This document shows, in pieces, positions 3,224 to 20,469 of a stretch of DNA of 27,273 nucleotides. A program made the translations under genes and the position numbers. Location: positions 1 to 27,273 of the forward strand of contig JAUWLW010000038.1 in the NCBI GenBank assembly GCA_030613505.1, in the 5' to 3' direction. This DNA comes from Candidatus Zixiibacteriota bacterium. GTDB lineage: Bacteria; RBG-13-66-14; B26-G2; WVWN01. Under the pieces are notes generated by a model. The model was not told where the DNA came from and did not search any database. It worked only from the letters and a program-made list of their open reading frames with translations. Every line of letters begins with the position of its first letter. Within the stretch, counting starts at the first letter, position 1.

Positions 3224-4405
3224 ATGACGCACGAAGCTTTAAAAAGGAATATCCCACTCCTCTACGCTGCACGCATCTGCGGGAACCTGATCTTCTTCGT
3301 CCCCGTCATCGTCATCTTCTTCCAGGCCCAAGGGCTCTCGATGACACAGGTGATGCTGCTGCAGACGGCGTTCGCAGCGGCGGTCGTAGCGTTGGAAGTA
3401 CCGTCGGGATTCTTCGCCGACCGCGTGGGGCGCCGCCCGAGTATCTTCCTGGGCGCCGGCGCGGTGACGGCGGCGTGCGTCGTCTACGGGACCGGCTACG
3501 GCTTCAGCCAATTCCTGGTGGCGGAGATATTGTGGGCCGTCGGCGCGTCGCTCATCTCGGGCGCCGACGCCGCGGTCCTCTACGACACGCTGCTAGCGTT
3601 GGGCAGGGAAGAGAAGTACCAGAAGATAGAAGGCCACGCCTCGTTTCTGGCGCTTTCCGGGGCGGCGGCGGCGGCCGTCGTGGGCGGCTTCGCCGCGACC
3701 ACATGGTTGCGGCTGACGTTCTATTTGACCGCGGCCGCGCTCGCCGTGGCCGTCGTGGCGGCGCTGTTCCTGCGCGAGCCGCCCCGCGGCAAGGGCGGCC
3801 ACCCGCGCGGCGAGCTGTATTACTTATACAAAATAGGCCGGTTCGCGCTGTACAAAAACGTCGAGGTGCGGTGGCTCATCCTGCTCGCGGCCCTCGTCAA
3901 CGGCCTGGGAACGGTCGGCTTCTGGCTGTACCAGCCCTACTTCGAATTGTGCCGGATCCCGCTGCCCTACTTCGGCCTGATATTCGCCCTCTTCAACATC
4001 TTCGCGGCCTTCTCGAGCAAAATTGCGTTCGTCGTAGAACGGGCCATAGGCAAGCGGCTCGCGCTCATATCGCTGCCGGTACTGCTGGGAGCATCCCTCG
4101 TAGCGATGGCGGCTTTCGTGACGCCGTTAGGCTTTTTATTCGTGTTGTTCGCGCAGTTCGTACGCGGCTTCTCGCACCCGGTCATACAGGATTACATAAA
4201 CCGCCATACGTGGTCCGATAAGCGCGCGACCGTGATGTCGATAAAGAACTTAACGTCGCGGTTGATGTTTATCGTCACGGCGCCGGCGATAGGCGCCGCG
4301 GTGGACGCGGCCGACGTACGGCTGGGGTTGTTGCTGACCGCGGCCGTCGCCGTCGCGGGCGGCGGGGCGCTGGTCATCGCGCTCAGGCGGGACCGCGTAA
4401 TATAG
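3224..4405 (+). CDS. MFS transporter
   Basis: 393 aa, almost entirely hydrophobic, with about 10-12 predicted transmembrane segments. The loop 2-3 signature is present (SGFFADRVGRRPSIF, about residues 61-75), matching the MFS G-x-x-x-D-R-x-G-R-R motif A. The length fits a 12-TM single-domain transporter. A basic, Tyr-rich cytoplasmic loop (about 188-215) separates the two halves. The substrate cannot be predicted; the architecture resembles drug/metabolite exporters of the MFS_1 type. It begins only 16 nt after a strong terminator, and the ribosome site is weak (GGAAACG), so expression may be low or depend on read-through. It ends 14 nt before the convergent lipoprotein gene, with no hairpin between. 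Confidence 0.85.
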   Translation: MTHEALKRNIPLLYAARICGNLIFFVPVIVIFFQAQGLSMTQVMLLQTAFAAAVVALEVPSGFFADRVGRRPSIFLGAGAVTAACVVYGTGYGFSQFLVAEILWAVGASLISGADAAVLYDTLLALGREEKYQKIEGHASFLALSGAAAAAVVGGFAATTWLRLTFYLTAAALAVAVVAALFLREPPRGKGGHPRGELYYLYKIGRFALYKNVEVRWLILLAALVNGLGTVGFWLYQPYFELCRIPLPYFGLIFALFNIFAAFSSKIAFVVERAIGKRLALISLPVLLGASLVAMAAFVTPLGFLFVLFAQFVRGFSHPVIQDYINRHTWSDKRATVMSIKNLTSRLMFIVTAPAIGAAVDAADVRLGLLLTAAVAVAGGGALVIALRRDRVI

Positions 4406-4419
4406 GGGGTAAAAACCGG

Positions 4420-5034
4420 CTATTCGGCCGGGGCGGAGGTCTCGGGCGGGAGCGCCGGCGGCGCCTCCGCCGGGGGAGTCGGTTGGGGCGCAGCTTCGGG
4501 CGAGGGGGCGGCGGGCGGCGGGGCCGGGCGGGCGGGCTCGGTCGGCGGCAGCGGCCCCCAAACGACGCGCCGGCGCCCCAGCCCTTCGTAGCGTCGAGCC
4601 ACTTTTAAATAATAAGGTTCACCCAAAGGCCGGAGCTCGTCCGCGGCCGATAAAAGATCCCCGCGAATTCGCTCATACGTCACGTCCGGCAACGGCGGCG
4701 CGTAGTCGCCCACGCCGGCCAGGGCTTCAGCGGCGCCGTTCAGCCGCTCGAGCGCGCGGGCGAAAACGGCCCCCCGGTACGCGTCGGGCGCCCGCCGCAC
4801 GGCCTCGCGGCCCTCGGCGCGGGCCTGCTCCACTACGGCCGCGGCCCGGGCGTTGTCCGTCCCCAGGTAAACCACGGCCAGCTCGCACATTTTCTGCAGC
4901 ACCGCGGCTCGAGCCGCGAACTCGTCCTCGCCGTACGGAGCCACGGCCGCGGGTTCCGGTTTAGGCCGCGGCGCCGAACACGCCCCCGCCAGCGCGCACG
5001 CCGCCAAGAACAATTTCAATCCGTTCCCGTTCAC
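4420..5034 (-). CDS. Small lipoprotein with Pro/Ala-rich C-terminus, unknown
   Basis: 204 aa from a GTG at 5034. The frame is open further upstream, but this start overlaps the stop of the methyltransferase gene (GTGA) and gives a clean lipoprotein signal (LKLFLAACALAGACS, Cys about residue 20). The middle (about 35-145) is Ala/Arg/Glu-rich and probably helical. The last ~40 residues are a Pro/Ala/Glu-rich low-complexity tail, typical of a spacer reaching through periplasm or peptidoglycan. No family recognised. The overlap implies translational coupling to the methyltransferase, but no functional connection is evident. Confidence 0.75.
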   Translation of the reverse strand: MNGNGLKLFLAACALAGACSAPRPKPEPAAVAPYGEDEFAARAAVLQKMCELAVVYLGTDNARAAAVVEQARAEGREAVRRAPDAYRGAVFARALERLNGAAEALAGVGDYAPPLPDVTYERIRGDLLSAADELRPLGEPYYLKVARRYEGLGRRRVVWGPLPPTEPARPAPPPAAPSPEAAPQPTPPAEAPPALPPETSAPAE

Positions 5035-5738
5035 GGCGAGCGACCCTTCACGACGTACGCGATGCCGAAGAACTTGGGCTCGGCTCGAACGTCGGCGAAG
5101 CCCGCCGCCGCCAGCCGGCCGGCGAGTTCCGCGGCCGAAAAACAATTCTGGATGGACGCCGACAAGTAGCGGTAGGCGACGCCTTCGCGAGCGATAAGCC
5201 GTCCCCACAACGGCACCATAACGTTGAGGTAAATTCTATACACCGCACCGGTCAAACCCTTGGGCGGCGCGAAGACGTCCGCCACCACGACCCGGCCGCC
5301 GGCCTTGAGGACGCGCCGCATCTCGCCCACCGCGGCGTCGGTCGCCGGTATATTCCGAAAGAGGAAGGCGCTGCCGACGTTGTCCACGGCGCCGTCCCGG
5401 AAGGGCATCCGCGCGACGTCGCCCAGTACGAAGCGAACCCGGCCGGCCCGTTCGTACGACGCGAGCTTGGCCCGGGCGACGCGGAACATCTCCGGGCTTC
5501 GGTCCAGGCATACGACGCGCGACGCCCCCGCGCCGAGGCAAACCGCGGCCAGGTCGCCGCTGCCGGCGCCGGCGTCGAGGACTACGCCGCGGCCGACGAA
5601 CGCCGCCGCGTCGCGCCGCATAAGTCCCACCATGCCGAGGCTCTGGACGTAGTTGACCAGGTCGTAACGGCGTGCTATCCGGCCGTATAAGTCGTCCAGA
5701 AAACCTTGCTTAACCGAAGCTCGGGCAAAAGTTGACAT
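5031..5738 (-). CDS. UbiE/MenG-type SAM-dependent C-methyltransferase
   Basis: 235 aa, the usual UbiE length. N-terminal UbiE signature about residues 18-34 (YGRIARRYDLVNYVQSLG), SAM motif I LDAGAGSGDL (54-63), acidic motif II at about D80, the FLFRN segment (126-129) corresponding to the family's G-[IF]-R-N, and YRYLSASIQNCF (189-200), corresponding to the second UbiE signature YRYL-x-x-SI. Known family role: C-methylation of demethylmenaquinone or 2-polyprenyl-benzoquinol in respiratory quinone synthesis, at the cytoplasmic membrane. No other quinone gene is in the window, so the substrate is by family only. The start ATG lies within the divergent PQQ gene's promoter (-35 at 5732-5737), so the two genes share regulatory DNA. 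Confidence 0.8.
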   Translation of the reverse strand: MSTFARASVKQGFLDDLYGRIARRYDLVNYVQSLGMVGLMRRDAAAFVGRGVVLDAGAGSGDLAAVCLGAGASRVVCLDRSPEMFRVARAKLASYERAGRVRFVLGDVARMPFRDGAVDNVGSAFLFRNIPATDAAVGEMRRVLKAGGRVVVADVFAPPKGLTGAVYRIYLNVMVPLWGRLIAREGVAYRYLSASIQNCFSAAELAGRLAAAGFADVRAEPKFFGIAYVVKGRSP

Positions 5739-15927: not shown

Positions 15928-15955
15928 GTAGGGGCGACCGGCCGGTCGCCGCTAC
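15928..15955. repeat. Intergenic palindrome, probable dispersed repeat unit
   Basis: Perfect 18-bp palindrome GGCGACCGGCCGGTCGCC (15933-15950) extended by GTAG/CTAC outer arms with one mismatched G. It has the look of short palindromic intergenic repeats found in many copies in some genomes. Only one copy is in this window, so dispersal is an inference. Confidence 0.6.
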
Positions 15956-16010: not shown

Positions 16011-16241
16011 CTATCCTTTGGGCGGATACGGGTCTTTGGCATAAGTACGTTCGTCTTGTATTCTGCCGTTCCGCTTGCGTATCTTGACCTGGCTCGGTCT
16101 ATTCTTTTTCGCCAGGGCAACCGCCTTTTTTACGGCGGGGGGTTTCGTTTCGAAATTAAACCCACGCGCCTTACTGGTTTCGGTAACTCTCCAACCGCCC
16201 TTTTTGACGGCCGTAACATGGTACTGTTTACGCTTCGCCAT
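16011..16241 (-). CDS. DUF2188 small protein
   Basis: 76 aa, Lys/Arg-rich and probably cytoplasmic. The pattern QYHVTAVKKGGWRVTETSKARG ... AVALAKKN ... VKIRKRNGRIQDERTYAKDPYPPKG matches DUF2188, whose members share the H-V-x-[PA]-x2-GGW start and the NGRIQ-E/D-x-x-[TS]-Y-x-x-DP-[FY]-PPKG end. Function of the family is unknown. GGAGG ribosome site 8 nt before the ATG. It lies at the 3' end of the restriction-modification locus in the same orientation, which may be coincidental. Confidence 0.85.
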   Translation of the reverse strand: MAKRKQYHVTAVKKGGWRVTETSKARGFNFETKPPAVKKAVALAKKNRPSQVKIRKRNGRIQDERTYAKDPYPPKG

Positions 16242-16287: not shown

Positions 16288-16432
16288 TTAACGTCCGCCT
16301 TCGACGATACTTATCTCCTCGTCCGTCAGGCCGTACAGCTCGTAGACCAGCGCGTCTATCTTGCGGTCGGTGGCGGCGATGGCGCGCTGTATCCTTTTCT
16401 TGTCGGCGTCGGATTTGGCGGCCGGTTTCCGT
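16288..16432 (-). pseudogene. Detached second copy of the type IIG enzyme's C-terminal segment
   Basis: Translation AAKSDADKKRIQRAIAATD... to ...YGLTDEEISIVEGGR reproduces the last ~45 residues of the enzyme encoded at 17407-20469. At the DNA level 16331-16408 matches 17450-17527 with a single difference (T versus G at 16390/17509); outside this core the copies diverge. There is no proper start: an open frame could begin at a TTG overlapping the stop of the upstream gene, but the extra N-terminal residues are not homologous. GC-rich, unlike the AT-rich gene beside it. Best read as the displaced tail of a related or ancestral enzyme gene, not a functional gene. Confidence 0.8.
16331..16408. 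repeat. Direct repeat, copy 1 (78 bp, one mismatch)
   Basis: Same orientation as 17450-17527, offset 1119 bp. The pair brackets the AT-rich gene at 16476-17378. Confidence 0.9.
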
Positions 16433-16475: not shown

Positions 16476-17378
16476 TCAATCTAAAAACCGGTACCCGTTA
16501 ATAACCAAAAACTTCAAATCTGTAGTACCTTCTACCTTAAAACTATAGTCGAGCTTAAATGGTGAGTTCATATTATGTACATAATTCTGGAGGTACCCAT
16601 TGTTGTAAGTAGATAATATAAACTTTGCGTAAAGAGGGAAATCGAATAACCGATCTAGTGGGTCTTCGCTTTTATCTATTACCTTCTTTATTTCGGTCGC
16701 CAATTCACCGGTTGCCTCTCCTAATATCTTTATGATGCCTTCAAAATTCTGTGTGAAATCATTATTGAACTTATTTTCGGTTACCCACGCGGAGAAGACC
16801 GGGGACCGTCTTTTTATAAATTCTATAAAGGACCACGCTAATTTCGTCCTTAACCCGGTTTTATCTAATCCTGACCTTTGAAAAATATCTTTACCCTTTA
16901 GAGCCGATACTTCGCAATTTAAAATGTACGGCAATATATCGAACTGACTAAGTACTTGTTCGATCTTTTGGCGCCCTTCCGGAATAGGGAATTGTACGAA
17001 CGTTTTATACGATATAGCTTTCCCATTCTCGATTTCTATCATATTACCTTGACTAAACTCGTCGATAATTAAAACCCTATAATCGGAAGAACCTTCCGTA
17101 AACCGCCTTATATCTTGTGCGATAGGAATGGCGAAATTCAAAGAAATATCTTTTAACGGGGCTACTACGTTATCTATTATTGTATCGTATACCCTACATC
17201 CATTAGGATTAAACGACGAAAACAACCAAACACGATCTCGGACCGTGCTATCGCATTTATCTACGATTTCGTTTCTACGCGAACCGTCCTTTTCTCGTAT
17301 CCGTTTCAAAGAATCGTATAAAACGTAAGTTAATTTTAAATAACTAACGGTTTCCTGTTTAGCTAAAATGATAGTCAT
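16476..17378 (-). CDS. AT-rich gene of unknown function in the restriction-modification locus
   Basis: 300 aa, not recognised. Its base composition and codon use (AAA, TTA, ATA, AAT frequent) contrast sharply with surrounding GC-rich genes but match the specificity region of the adjacent enzyme. No signal peptide or TM segment is apparent, so soluble. N-terminal third mixed alpha/beta with VRDRVWLFSSFNPNG (about 46-60), RVLIIDEFSQGN (about 100-111) that could be a strand followed by an acidic turn, then KGKDIFQRSGLDKTGLRTKLAWSFIEFIKRR (about 161-191) and a helical C-terminal half ending in a beta-like segment. No Walker A, HTH or PD-ExK motif that I can defend. Starts 28 nt after the enzyme's stop with an AGGAAG 11 nt before the ATG, so probably cotranscribed. 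Candidate accessory, immunity or control protein of the locus. Confidence 0.75.
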   Translation of the reverse strand: MTIILAKQETVSYLKLTYVLYDSLKRIREKDGSRRNEIVDKCDSTVRDRVWLFSSFNPNGCRVYDTIIDNVVAPLKDISLNFAIPIAQDIRRFTEGSSDYRVLIIDEFSQGNMIEIENGKAISYKTFVQFPIPEGRQKIEQVLSQFDILPYILNCEVSALKGKDIFQRSGLDKTGLRTKLAWSFIEFIKRRSPVFSAWVTENKFNNDFTQNFEGIIKILGEATGELATEIKKVIDKSEDPLDRLFDFPLYAKFILSTYNNGYLQNYVHNMNSPFKLDYSFKVEGTTDLKFLVINGYRFLD

Positions 17379-17406: not shown

Positions 17407-20400
17407 TCATTTGGCCCCCTCCACTATCCTCCTCTCTTCATCCGTCAAGCCGTACAGCTCGTAGACCAGCGCGTCTATCTTGCGGTCGGTGGCGGCGATG
17501 GCGCGCTGGATCCTTTTCTTGTCGGCGGGGGCCTTGGCGGCGGCGAGGCGCTTGTGGAGCTCGAGCATCTCCTCCACCAACGCCACCATCTTGTCGTGCC
17601 GCGCTACGTCGGTAGGATTTGAACAATCTATTTTTACGACAGGGAAATCGCCAAGGAATTCGGTGGCGAATACAAGGTAATCCCCGCGGAAAGTCGTACT
17701 GTTAGCCTTTATGAAGAACCATAGTAATTTAGAATTGAGAATACCTAAGAAAAACAACGGGTTTTCTTTAACGTCGACCTTGAAAATAACGCTATAGACT
17801 TTTGTTGTATGGTATAAAAACCCGCCGCCATCGTAACTCATATCTGGTTTATTTGCCATATAAGGCGTAACGATTTTTTCTTGTTCGAACTCGGATAAGT
17901 TTTTAGGGTAGATATAAGCGTAAAAATTTTCTCCCTTCATTTTACCCTTTTCCCGGTCTTCTAAATACTTTTTATTTTTTTCTATATACGCCCACGCCAA
18001 AGGGAACATATCGCTAATAAAATCCTTAGGCATCAACTCGGCTTTTGCACCTTCAATACTATAAGGGAAAATAACATATTTACGAGCCTCTAAATCACGG
18101 TAACGCCTAACGTCTCTACCCATAAGGAAAGGTTTTAAAATCCCCTTTTCTAATTCGACTTCCTCTCCCAATGCTTCGGAATACGCTATTAAGGTTCCAT
18201 CGCGTTCGGCTATAAACTCTAAAACGTAAACTTTATCGGCGCTCGTTTGTAAACCAACGAAAATTTTACGTGTAATTTCGTTCAGAGGTACGCCAGAGCT
18301 TCCGATCTTTTCGATTATACGGCGTTTATCCTCCGAAACGAAATTCCACTCATTTCCTGTAATACTTTCCGCAGGTATTTCGAAATCTTCAAATATCTTA
18401 CCCTTTAACCAATCTTGAATATTTAATACCCGTATATAACGTGGTGTATTCGTAGGCGTCTTTTTTAAAACGATAATGCAAGTATAAGTCGTAGCCCCTT
18501 CGAATACTTGTTGTACCCCGAAATGGACGGTTTTAAATAGGTTTCTACCTTCTGCGATAAGGGTTCTTATGGGTTCGCCGTATTGGGCATTAAAGAATTT
18601 ATGGGGTACTATAAAACCGAGTAACCCTTTTTTTACTAATAATCCTAAACCCCGTTCGATAAATAGAACATATATATCGTAATTACCCGACCGTGCAGCG
18701 GAAAACCCCTTTTTATAATAATCCAATTTATCAATACCTGCGTCCCGTAACGTCTGTAACCTAACATACGGCGGGTTCCCGATCACCGCGTCGAAACCGC
18801 CGGCCTTCATTATCTTCGGGAACTCCACCTCCCAGTCGAAGGGGTTGACGCGGCGCCGTTCCTCCTCATCCTGTGGGACAGACATTGATGTCTGTCCCCC
18901 CTCAAAATAGTCCGAGCCGATGAGCGAGTTGCCGCACTTGACGTTATCGCCCAGGTCCGGCAGAATCCGCTCGCGCAGGAACTTGGTCTGGGCGCCGACG
19001 GACTCGCGGCTCTCGCCCTCCAGCGCCTTCAGCAGCAGCGAGAGCTTCGTAACCTCGCACGCCTGCGGGTCGATGTCCACGCCGAACAGGTTATTTACGA
19101 GGATGTCCTTCTTGGCGGCGGCGGTGAGGCGCCAGCTCACGGGCCCGGGCCCGGGCGTCGCGACGACCTTACCCTCGTGCTTCGCCGGGCCGTCCTTAAC
19201 ATACCACTCGAGATGCCAGTTGACCAGGTGCTGGTACGCGCCCAACAGGAACGAGCCCGAGCCGCACGCGGGGTCGAGTATTTTAAGTTTGGCCGCGTCC
19301 TTCGGCCTCTTGCACCCCTTCAACAGCTCCCCCACCGTGTTCTTGACGATGTACTCCACGATGTACTGGGGCGTGTAGTAGACGCCCTTGGCCTTGCGGA
19401 CCTCCGGCTTGTAGTCTATGTGGACGCCGCGGCCGTCGAGCCATATCGTCTTCCCGAGGAACTGCTCGTACACCTGGCCGAGTATCTCCACCGGGACGAC
19501 GCCGAACTCGTACGGGCTATCGGATAGCTCTCGGATTATTTTGCGGAGTGTTGCGTCGTCCACGTGAAGGGTGGGCGTGAGCTCGTCGCGGGAGGTGGCG
19601 CGGCCTTTCTCGTCGCGGAAGTGGAACAGGCCGGAGTTGTAAACGTCGTCGGCCTCGAGGCACAGGTCCATCAGGCGGCCGTAAACGGCCTCGCCCGTAC
19701 GAAGCGCCTCGAGCCGGCCGCGGTCCTCGATGCCGCGGTCCTCGGCGACGCGGAGGAAAATTATGCGGTCGAGGATGGCCTGGACGGCGGCGCTTAGCTC
19801 GTACTTGTCGAGGTCCTTCTCGCGGTTGCGGTTGGCGACGTTGCGCGCGAGCTCGTCGCGCCAACCCTCCAATAGTTTCAAAAACGCCTTGTCGACCGGT
19901 TCGGCCTTGCCGCCGCGGGTTTTCTCGGCGTACGTATCGAACGCCCCACTCCACACGGCTTCCCGGGAAAATACCGCCGCTATCTCCTCCCACGCCTCTA
20001 CGTACCGGTCGTACGTGAAATACATAACGCGGGCGCGGGAGGCGGCGTCGGCCTTCTTCGGCGGAACGCGGCCGTCGTAGGCCGCGAACTCCTCGAAGTC
20101 GGTCAAAATGGAAAGGGGTAAGCCGGCGGAATAGGCGTAGCGGCGGAGCTGCAGCGCGGGGCCGGCGTCGTCCTTAAGGCGGGTGCCGGGCTTTTTAGCC
20201 TCGACGAAAAATTTTACCTTTTCGCCGACGCGGAAGGCGTAATCGGCGGTCTTTTGGGAACCCTCTACCTCGGTGCCGTACTCGTGAACGACGTCCTGAT
20301 ACAGCGGCGAGACGCCGCGTTTGTTGTCCACATCCCAACCGAGCGCCTCGAAGAACGGGTCGAGGAACTCGCGCCGGAGCTGCGTCTCGTTGTAACCGCT

Positions 20401-20469
20401 CCCGCAATAAAGCTCTCGGTTTCGGTCGAAGCGCGCGACAAGGGTTTCGACTATTTCGGGTGCGGCCAT
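17407..20469 (-). CDS. One-polypeptide (type IIG-like) restriction enzyme / N6-adenine DNA methyltransferase
   Basis: 1020 aa. N-terminal nuclease-like domain about 1-140: the PD-(D/E)xK core is visible as D76 (TADYAF) with E90-A-K92 (FFVEAKKPG), and the region resembles HsdR N-termini. A helical linker runs about 190-355. The methyltransferase domain opens with VYYTPQYIVEYIV (363-375), has SAM motif I ILDPACGSGSF (397-407), VDIDP (464-468), and catalytic motif IV NPPY (565-568), the N6-adenine/Eco57I class. The remaining part contains a TaqI/BREX-like specificity segment (FLMGRDVRRYRDL) and a C-terminal coiled coil (about 960-1005). Known architecture: cutting, methylation and recognition in one chain. 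DNA for residues about 563-953 is AT-rich, the rest GC-rich, implying a swapped specificity region. Strong GGAGGAGAAGG site before the ATG. Confidence 0.88.
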   Translation of the reverse strand: MAAPEIVETLVARFDRNRELYCGSGYNETQLRREFLDPFFEALGWDVDNKRGVSPLYQDVVHEYGTEVEGSQKTADYAFRVGEKVKFFVEAKKPGTRLKDDAGPALQLRRYAYSAGLPLSILTDFEEFAAYDGRVPPKKADAASRARVMYFTYDRYVEAWEEIAAVFSREAVWSGAFDTYAEKTRGGKAEPVDKAFLKLLEGWRDELARNVANRNREKDLDKYELSAAVQAILDRIIFLRVAEDRGIEDRGRLEALRTGEAVYGRLMDLCLEADDVYNSGLFHFRDEKGRATSRDELTPTLHVDDATLRKIIRELSDSPYEFGVVPVEILGQVYEQFLGKTIWLDGRGVHIDYKPEVRKAKGVYYTPQYIVEYIVKNTVGELLKGCKRPKDAAKLKILDPACGSGSFLLGAYQHLVNWHLEWYVKDGPAKHEGKVVATPGPGPVSWRLTAAAKKDILVNNLFGVDIDPQACEVTKLSLLLKALEGESRESVGAQTKFLRERILPDLGDNVKCGNSLIGSDYFEGGQTSMSVPQDEEERRRVNPFDWEVEFPKIMKAGGFDAVIGNPPYVRLQTLRDAGIDKLDYYKKGFSAARSGNYDIYVLFIERGLGLLVKKGLLGFIVPHKFFNAQYGEPIRTLIAEGRNLFKTVHFGVQQVFEGATTYTCIIVLKKTPTNTPRYIRVLNIQDWLKGKIFEDFEIPAESITGNEWNFVSEDKRRIIEKIGSSGVPLNEITRKIFVGLQTSADKVYVLEFIAERDGTLIAYSEALGEEVELEKGILKPFLMGRDVRRYRDLEARKYVIFPYSIEGAKAELMPKDFISDMFPLAWAYIEKNKKYLEDREKGKMKGENFYAYIYPKNLSEFEQEKIVTPYMANKPDMSYDGGGFLYHTTKVYSVIFKVDVKENPLFFLGILNSKLLWFFIKANSTTFRGDYLVFATEFLGDFPVVKIDCSNPTDVARHDKMVALVEEMLELHKRLAAAKAPADKKRIQRAIAATDRKIDALVYELYGLTDEERRIVEGAK
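17450..17527. repeat. Direct repeat, copy 2, inside the 3' end of the type IIG gene
   Basis: Matches 16331-16408 in the same orientation with one mismatch. This copy is within the intact enzyme gene. Confidence 0.9.
18875..18898. repeat. 24-bp palindrome inserted in the coding sequence
   Basis: Arms GGGACAGACAT and ATGTCTGTCCC are perfectly complementary around a 2-nt TG centre. It encodes enzyme residues about 524-532 (GGQTSMSVP) in frame, between the SAM-binding motif and NPPY. The shape is that of a small mobile palindromic repeat. Confidence 0.7.

Follow-up and report, generated by a model that had tools for sequence, protein, structure and literature searches.

The window analysed here is a stretch of 27,273 nucleotides from the genome of a Candidatus Zixiibacteriota bacterium (G000), and its minus strand carries, at 17407..20469, a gene for a 1020-aa protein that PADLOC and Pfam matches identify as a Type IIG restriction enzyme-methyltransferase. 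Residues 7-1015 match the PADLOC model PDLC03604 REase_MTase_IIG (E=1.3e-252), and the Pfam domains HSDR_N, N6_Mtase, Eco57I, and TaqI_C are recognized in the protein. Judged by these matches, the protein belongs to the Type IIG enzymes and combines a nuclease, an adenine methyltransferase, and a specificity region in one chain, and its predicted function is DNA cleavage and methylation. This layout is that of the Eco57I-like restriction-modification enzymes, in which a single polypeptide contains an N-terminal nuclease, N6-adenine methyltransferase motifs, and a C-terminal specificity region. Four parts can be distinguished in the gene: a resident N-terminal nuclease/methyltransferase part that is orthologous to the same-site gene of the congener G001 (residues 1-506, 18952..20469); a GC-rich, exchanged stretch before the NPPY motif, delimited by change-point analysis and a 50-nt exact match (residues 507-567, 18769..18951); an AT-rich specificity region, or target-recognition domain, marked by its third-position GC content (GC3) of 0.37 and by TaqI_C (residues 568-953, 17611..18768); and a GC-rich C-terminal tail with GC3 of 0.91 (residues 954-1020, 17407..17610).

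Past the enzyme, the minus strand of the window contains a 300-aa accessory ORF (16476..17378), which starts 28 bp past the enzyme stop codon and with its GC3 of 0.39 matches the AT-richness of the specificity region. It is followed by an orphan copy of the tail, or scar, that corresponds to enzyme residues 974-1020 with 85% protein identity (16291..16431), by a small 76-aa DUF2188 gene (16011..16241; Pfam DUF2188, E=1.5e-14), and by tRNA-Asp. The tail duplication forms a 125-nt direct repeat that is 89% identical between 17417-17541 and 16298-16422; the description of Type IIG systems includes no such duplicated tail behind an accessory gene. Neither the duplicated tail nor the AT-rich 300-aa gene figured in an earlier sequence-only reading of this stretch. 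For the 300-aa ORF, no family scored above cutoff, searches of 290 genomes and of plasmids, phages, and viral contigs yielded no relative, and the structure model from its single sequence (pLDDT 40) was not usable. The tail is not a dispersed repeat in G000, where all five tail matches fall within the two enzyme loci of the genome. At the second of these loci (L036, reverse complement, 4057-5700), a 453-aa ORF lies just behind the enzyme and is followed by two short tail scars. A search of the genome contigs with the enzyme as query returned nothing. We also considered a phase-variable inverting restriction-modification locus and rejected it: none of the few short inverted pairs found is associated with another specificity part, and the tail repeat is direct, not inverted.

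A maximum-likelihood two-change-point fit of GC3 along the enzyme gene places the breaks after residues 567 and 955 and gives values of 0.84, 0.37, and 0.91 for the three segments, with the left break inside the NPPY motif (residues 565-568); the fit is better than that of one segment far beyond chance (lnL -522 versus -649). The GC-rich/AT-rich/GC-rich pattern described by the sequence-only reading is thus real and lies where that reading had placed it. Its further claim, that such a composition implies a recently acquired specificity, was not supported by a comparison of 28 homologues from many families. In 26 of them GC3 is lower in the specificity region than in the N-terminal part (Wilcoxon p=5e-8), and in 25 it is lower than in the tail (p=5e-7). 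AT-richness of the specificity region is family-wide and extends across phyla, which is consistent with recurrent exchange, and the composition therefore can neither date a single exchange nor prove a recent import. The same count of 26 is what speaks for a reading without any exchange, in which selection or relaxed constraint made vertically inherited specificity domains AT-rich. We regard this reading as extremely improbable, since amino acid identity between the same-site genes drops from 92/89% outside the specificity region to 31/27% inside it, and since the trees of the gene segments conflict; the composition shift is widely shared, but the incongruent trees do not fit vertical inheritance.

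The site is marked by flanking genes for an S41 peptidase and for tRNA-Asp plus a peptidyl-prolyl isomerase-like protein (the two protein names were assigned by sequence reading), and it was found in three congeners. Within this one genus it occurs in four states, namely empty, with scars only, with the enzyme and one scar, and with the enzyme and four extra tails. The window genome has the enzyme, the 300-aa gene, and one scar. In G001, the enzyme has another specificity region and stands before four extra tails that are separated by mostly AT-rich ORFs; of the three larger ORFs, two are clearly AT-rich. In G003 (NCBI name Candidatus Zixiibacteriota bacterium A-C077), the enzyme is absent and two to three tail scars begin right at the S41 stop codon, to which they are joined via a short CCTGA match (L043:7190-7470). 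The single-contig genome G002 is empty at the site, with about 160 bp from the S41 stop codon to the tRNA, including a terminator-like hairpin. Content between these fixed flanks is therefore variable, the site being empty, variously filled, or emptied to scars. Palindromic repeats of the type GTAGGGGCGACTGGCCAGTCGCCCCTAC adjoin several of the G001 tails (L037:7832-10200), and a related palindrome lies near tRNA-Asp at 15928-15955 of the window; both look like dispersed genome repeats. Short palindromic repeats also adjoin the G003 scars in L043:7190-7470. A repeat common to the scar surroundings of G000 and G003 was considered as proof of a shared old scar and set aside, because it belongs to a genome-wide repeat family, so that a common old scar is suggestive only.

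Comparison of the same-site genes and their trees supports an exchange of the specificity region by recombination between conserved flanks, as the sequence-only reading had proposed. The G000 and G001 enzymes share 92/89% amino acid identity in residues 1-350/351-567 and 31/27% in residues 568-800/801-953, so that the alternative specificity region expected between the same flanks in a relative was indeed found. In the tree of residues 1-500, G000 and G001 are sisters (SH-aLRT 100). The specificity region rejects this pairing (AU p=9.5e-5) and places G000 among genes from other families, and the N-terminal part rejects a grouping with G133 (AU p=5e-7); congruence of the segments, which would have spoken against a mosaic gene, was not observed. 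A search with only the specificity region ranks G133 first at 41%, compared with 30% for the G001 ortholog.

Traces of the crossovers are found in the DNA flanking the specificity region. Between G000a and the non-orthologous gene G001b of the other locus, DNA identity averages about 57% over aligned windows, and the two longest exact matches, of 50 nt (residues 552-569) and 47 nt (residues 956-971), immediately flank the specificity region. In these flanks, the third codon positions of shared residues are more often identical (79/93 versus 158/242, Fisher p=2.9e-4), and the comparison with G000b gives a similar picture (75/87 versus 148/238, p=2.3e-5). The change from ortholog-like to other-locus-like sequence in G000 was placed at residue 507 (range 502-511, CGNSLIG; dlnL 21), and a reciprocal switch was detected in G001b at residues 506-510 (dlnL 17.8). 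Residues 507-567 resemble G001b more than the ortholog. The left junction thus lies about 57 codons before the composition switch, and the AT/GC boundary at NPPY already lay within the incoming piece. Of the earlier proposal that the breakpoints fall in conserved motifs, the conserved flanks stand, but the left junction is at residues 502-511 and not at NPPY. The right breakpoint had been drawn so as to leave a resident tail; the tail instead belongs to the exchange, given the 47-nt match to G001b and the agreement of 4 of 28 informative tail sites with the ortholog. The last exchange thus included the NPPY motif and extended into the tail. Its immediate donor looks like a GC-rich relative, given the similarity of residues 507-570 and of the tail to the other locus of the genus; it cannot be shown to be the distantly related genome of the sequence-only reading.

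Exchange of specificity domains is well known. In the domain movement (DOMO) of Helicobacter pylori, recombination in conserved or repeated sequences that flank the specificity domains changes these domains, and it does so between loci as well (PMC3077401). The window resembles DOMO in the conflicting history of its specificity region and in crossovers within conserved flanking DNA. DOMO concerns TRD1 and TRD2 of separate S subunits and short internal repeats (PMC3077401), whereas the gene here is a fused Type IIG gene, and, unlike in DOMO, copies of its tail are left downstream with foreign genes between them.

To describe these tail copies more broadly, we searched a tail profile over 290 genomes, most of which are draft assemblies. 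Among the matches listed, there are 132 in 75 genomes; 60 of these lie in frames shorter than 150 aa, and 51 of the 60 are located away from a contig start, in 31 of the 75 tail-bearing genomes. Orphan tails recur downstream of such enzyme genes in several bacterial families, with AT-rich genes between them. The direction is uniform: among the matches listed, 13 short-frame tails lie within 5 kb downstream of an intact gene tail, and none upstream. Restricting the set to orphans that accompany an intact gene tail leaves these 13, at 9 loci in 6 genomes. Several other orphan tails stand right behind a truncated methyltransferase and may be plain frameshifts, as seems to be the case in L071, L073, and L074. 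Generic pseudogene decay was rejected as the source of the orphans, as all matches listed for the motif-I and NPPY-region profiles lie in frames of at least 389 aa; this control is biased, since one frameshift near the gene end yields a short tail frame and the contrast is partly built in, and the unbiased figure is the ratio of 13 downstream to 0 upstream.

Genes of defence type are found between or beside the tails. In L058, the enzyme is followed by a 226-aa ORF, a tail, and a HEPN protein; in L061, by a 480-aa ORF, a tail, and a TIR/SEFIR protein; and in L038, by a PDC-S11/DUF4268 protein and two tails. Arrays lacking an intact tail have the order tail, RhuM, tail (L059), a PIN-type PDC-M11A between tails (L062), or a tail before an AriA-like ATPase (L104). 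The inter-tail or tail-flanked ORFs thus include HEPN, TIR/SEFIR, RhuM, PIN (PDC-M11A), PDC-S11, and the AriA-like ATPase, and many others are without a known family. The distance from an accessory stop codon to the tail that follows is commonly 0-60 bp. Tail matches were not found in phages, and five single ones were found in plasmids.

In two loci, part of the scar is nearly identical to the gene tail, with divergence beyond it. This part spans 90 nt in the window (96% identity or more, model columns 26-56), and in G001:C64 it spans 134 nt (model columns 1-45); beyond this genus, the divergence between gene tail and scar is at most loci too great to reveal recombination. The different positions of the two stretches argue for homologous crossover or conversion rather than a fixed attachment core. 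An ordinary homologous swap of specificity regions, with the orphan tails as unrelated debris from the replacement of old gene copies, through homology on their left side and illegitimate joining on their right, draws on the same-site identities, trees, exact DNA blocks, and change points. Debris of this kind would also agree with the varied start points of the orphans (model columns 1, 6, 19, 21, 29, and 38) and with the CCTGA joint at the S41 stop codon of G003. We nevertheless consider it unlikely: the extra copies found next to an intact gene are tails, and the matches listed contain no additional motif-I or NPPY copy; the accessory stop codons usually lie close before the next tail; and two loci retain the near-identical stretches of 90-134 nt.

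A quite improbable explanation is an integron-like or prophage-like site-specific system that uses the tail-coding DNA as the attachment site for gene cassettes. It draws on the gene-tail-gene-tail form of the arrays, on the restored coding end, and on a Haloarcula plasmid (L106:2941-7908) where a large hypothetical gene and an unannotated tail fragment are followed immediately by a tyrosine recombinase gene. Yet the shared core is differently positioned in the two loci, tail DNA varies widely between genomes, and among the inter-tail ORFs scanned with Pfam no recombinase and no integron integrase was recognized. The arrays resemble integron cassette arrays in that genes alternate with a repeated element, but here the repeat is protein-coding and has no fixed crossover core.

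We favor, as the probable reading, that the specificity region is swapped as a module and that the tails act as a repeated joint for the gain and loss of accessory genes. Homologous recombination exchanges the specificity region by one crossover in the conserved block before it (here residues 502-511) and another in the conserved C-terminal tail, as the comparisons show. Circles or fragments composed of an accessory gene and a tail, or an out-of-register exchange between tails, probably using RecA, would insert accessory genes behind the enzyme, which would retain a working C-terminus while the displaced tail stays downstream as an orphan scar. Repeated rounds would build arrays of the form enzyme-tail-gene-tail-gene-tail, and removal of units by tail-to-tail recombination or by joining at short matches would leave bare scars. 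The outcome would be a fast turnover of DNA specificity and of neighboring, often defence-type, genes at one site.

A close parallel is the C-terminal displacement of rhs genes, where an intact gene is followed by arrays of dissociated ends that are explained by homologous recombination with circles (PMC2935791); such an arrangement recurs here with the tails found downstream. Family and cargo differ; the displaced rhs piece consists of a core fragment and a variable tip (PMC2935791), whereas here the conserved end is left and the variable part is internal. The enzyme gene of the window encodes a Type IIG protein; it would work like rhs displacement but does not belong to the rhs toxin family. 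For a restriction-modification locus, circle excision mediated by repeats has been described at tvr of Streptococcus pneumoniae, which involves Type I hsdS fragments and a dedicated recombinase, and the portion of that report considered here describes no defence-gene cargo between tail scars (PMC6265443). Our searches of open-licence papers turned up no account of such scars downstream of restriction genes, and a conserved gene end left as countable scars that alternate with defence-type genes appears to be undescribed.

More tentatively, Type IIG genes and related methylase genes may possibly offer their conserved 3' ends as general capture points for defence-gene cassettes across bacteria, through RecA-dependent recombination from tail to tail. 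If so, a restriction gene could swap its specificity and gain or shed neighbors without losing function, and it could be the starting point of a defence island with no dedicated integrase involved. A general process of this kind would offer a mechanism for the accumulation of defence genes beside restriction genes, would mark new defence genes as whatever sits between two tails, and would let tail scars document earlier turnover at a site. Our observations suggest that such gene ends help bacteria to stack and exchange antiviral genes.

Two minor observations concern other loci. In L094:4249-8722, where a second tail was not seen, an ORF that weakly matches ThsA/Dsr1 (SIR2-type) directly follows a Type IIG gene, together with a large ORF whose beginning reads like a TIR domain. 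Several draft contigs, G164:C19, G112:C98, G254:C2, G141:C20, G051:C32, and others, start inside a tail, as expected if the tails are repeated or their neighborhood differs among strains.
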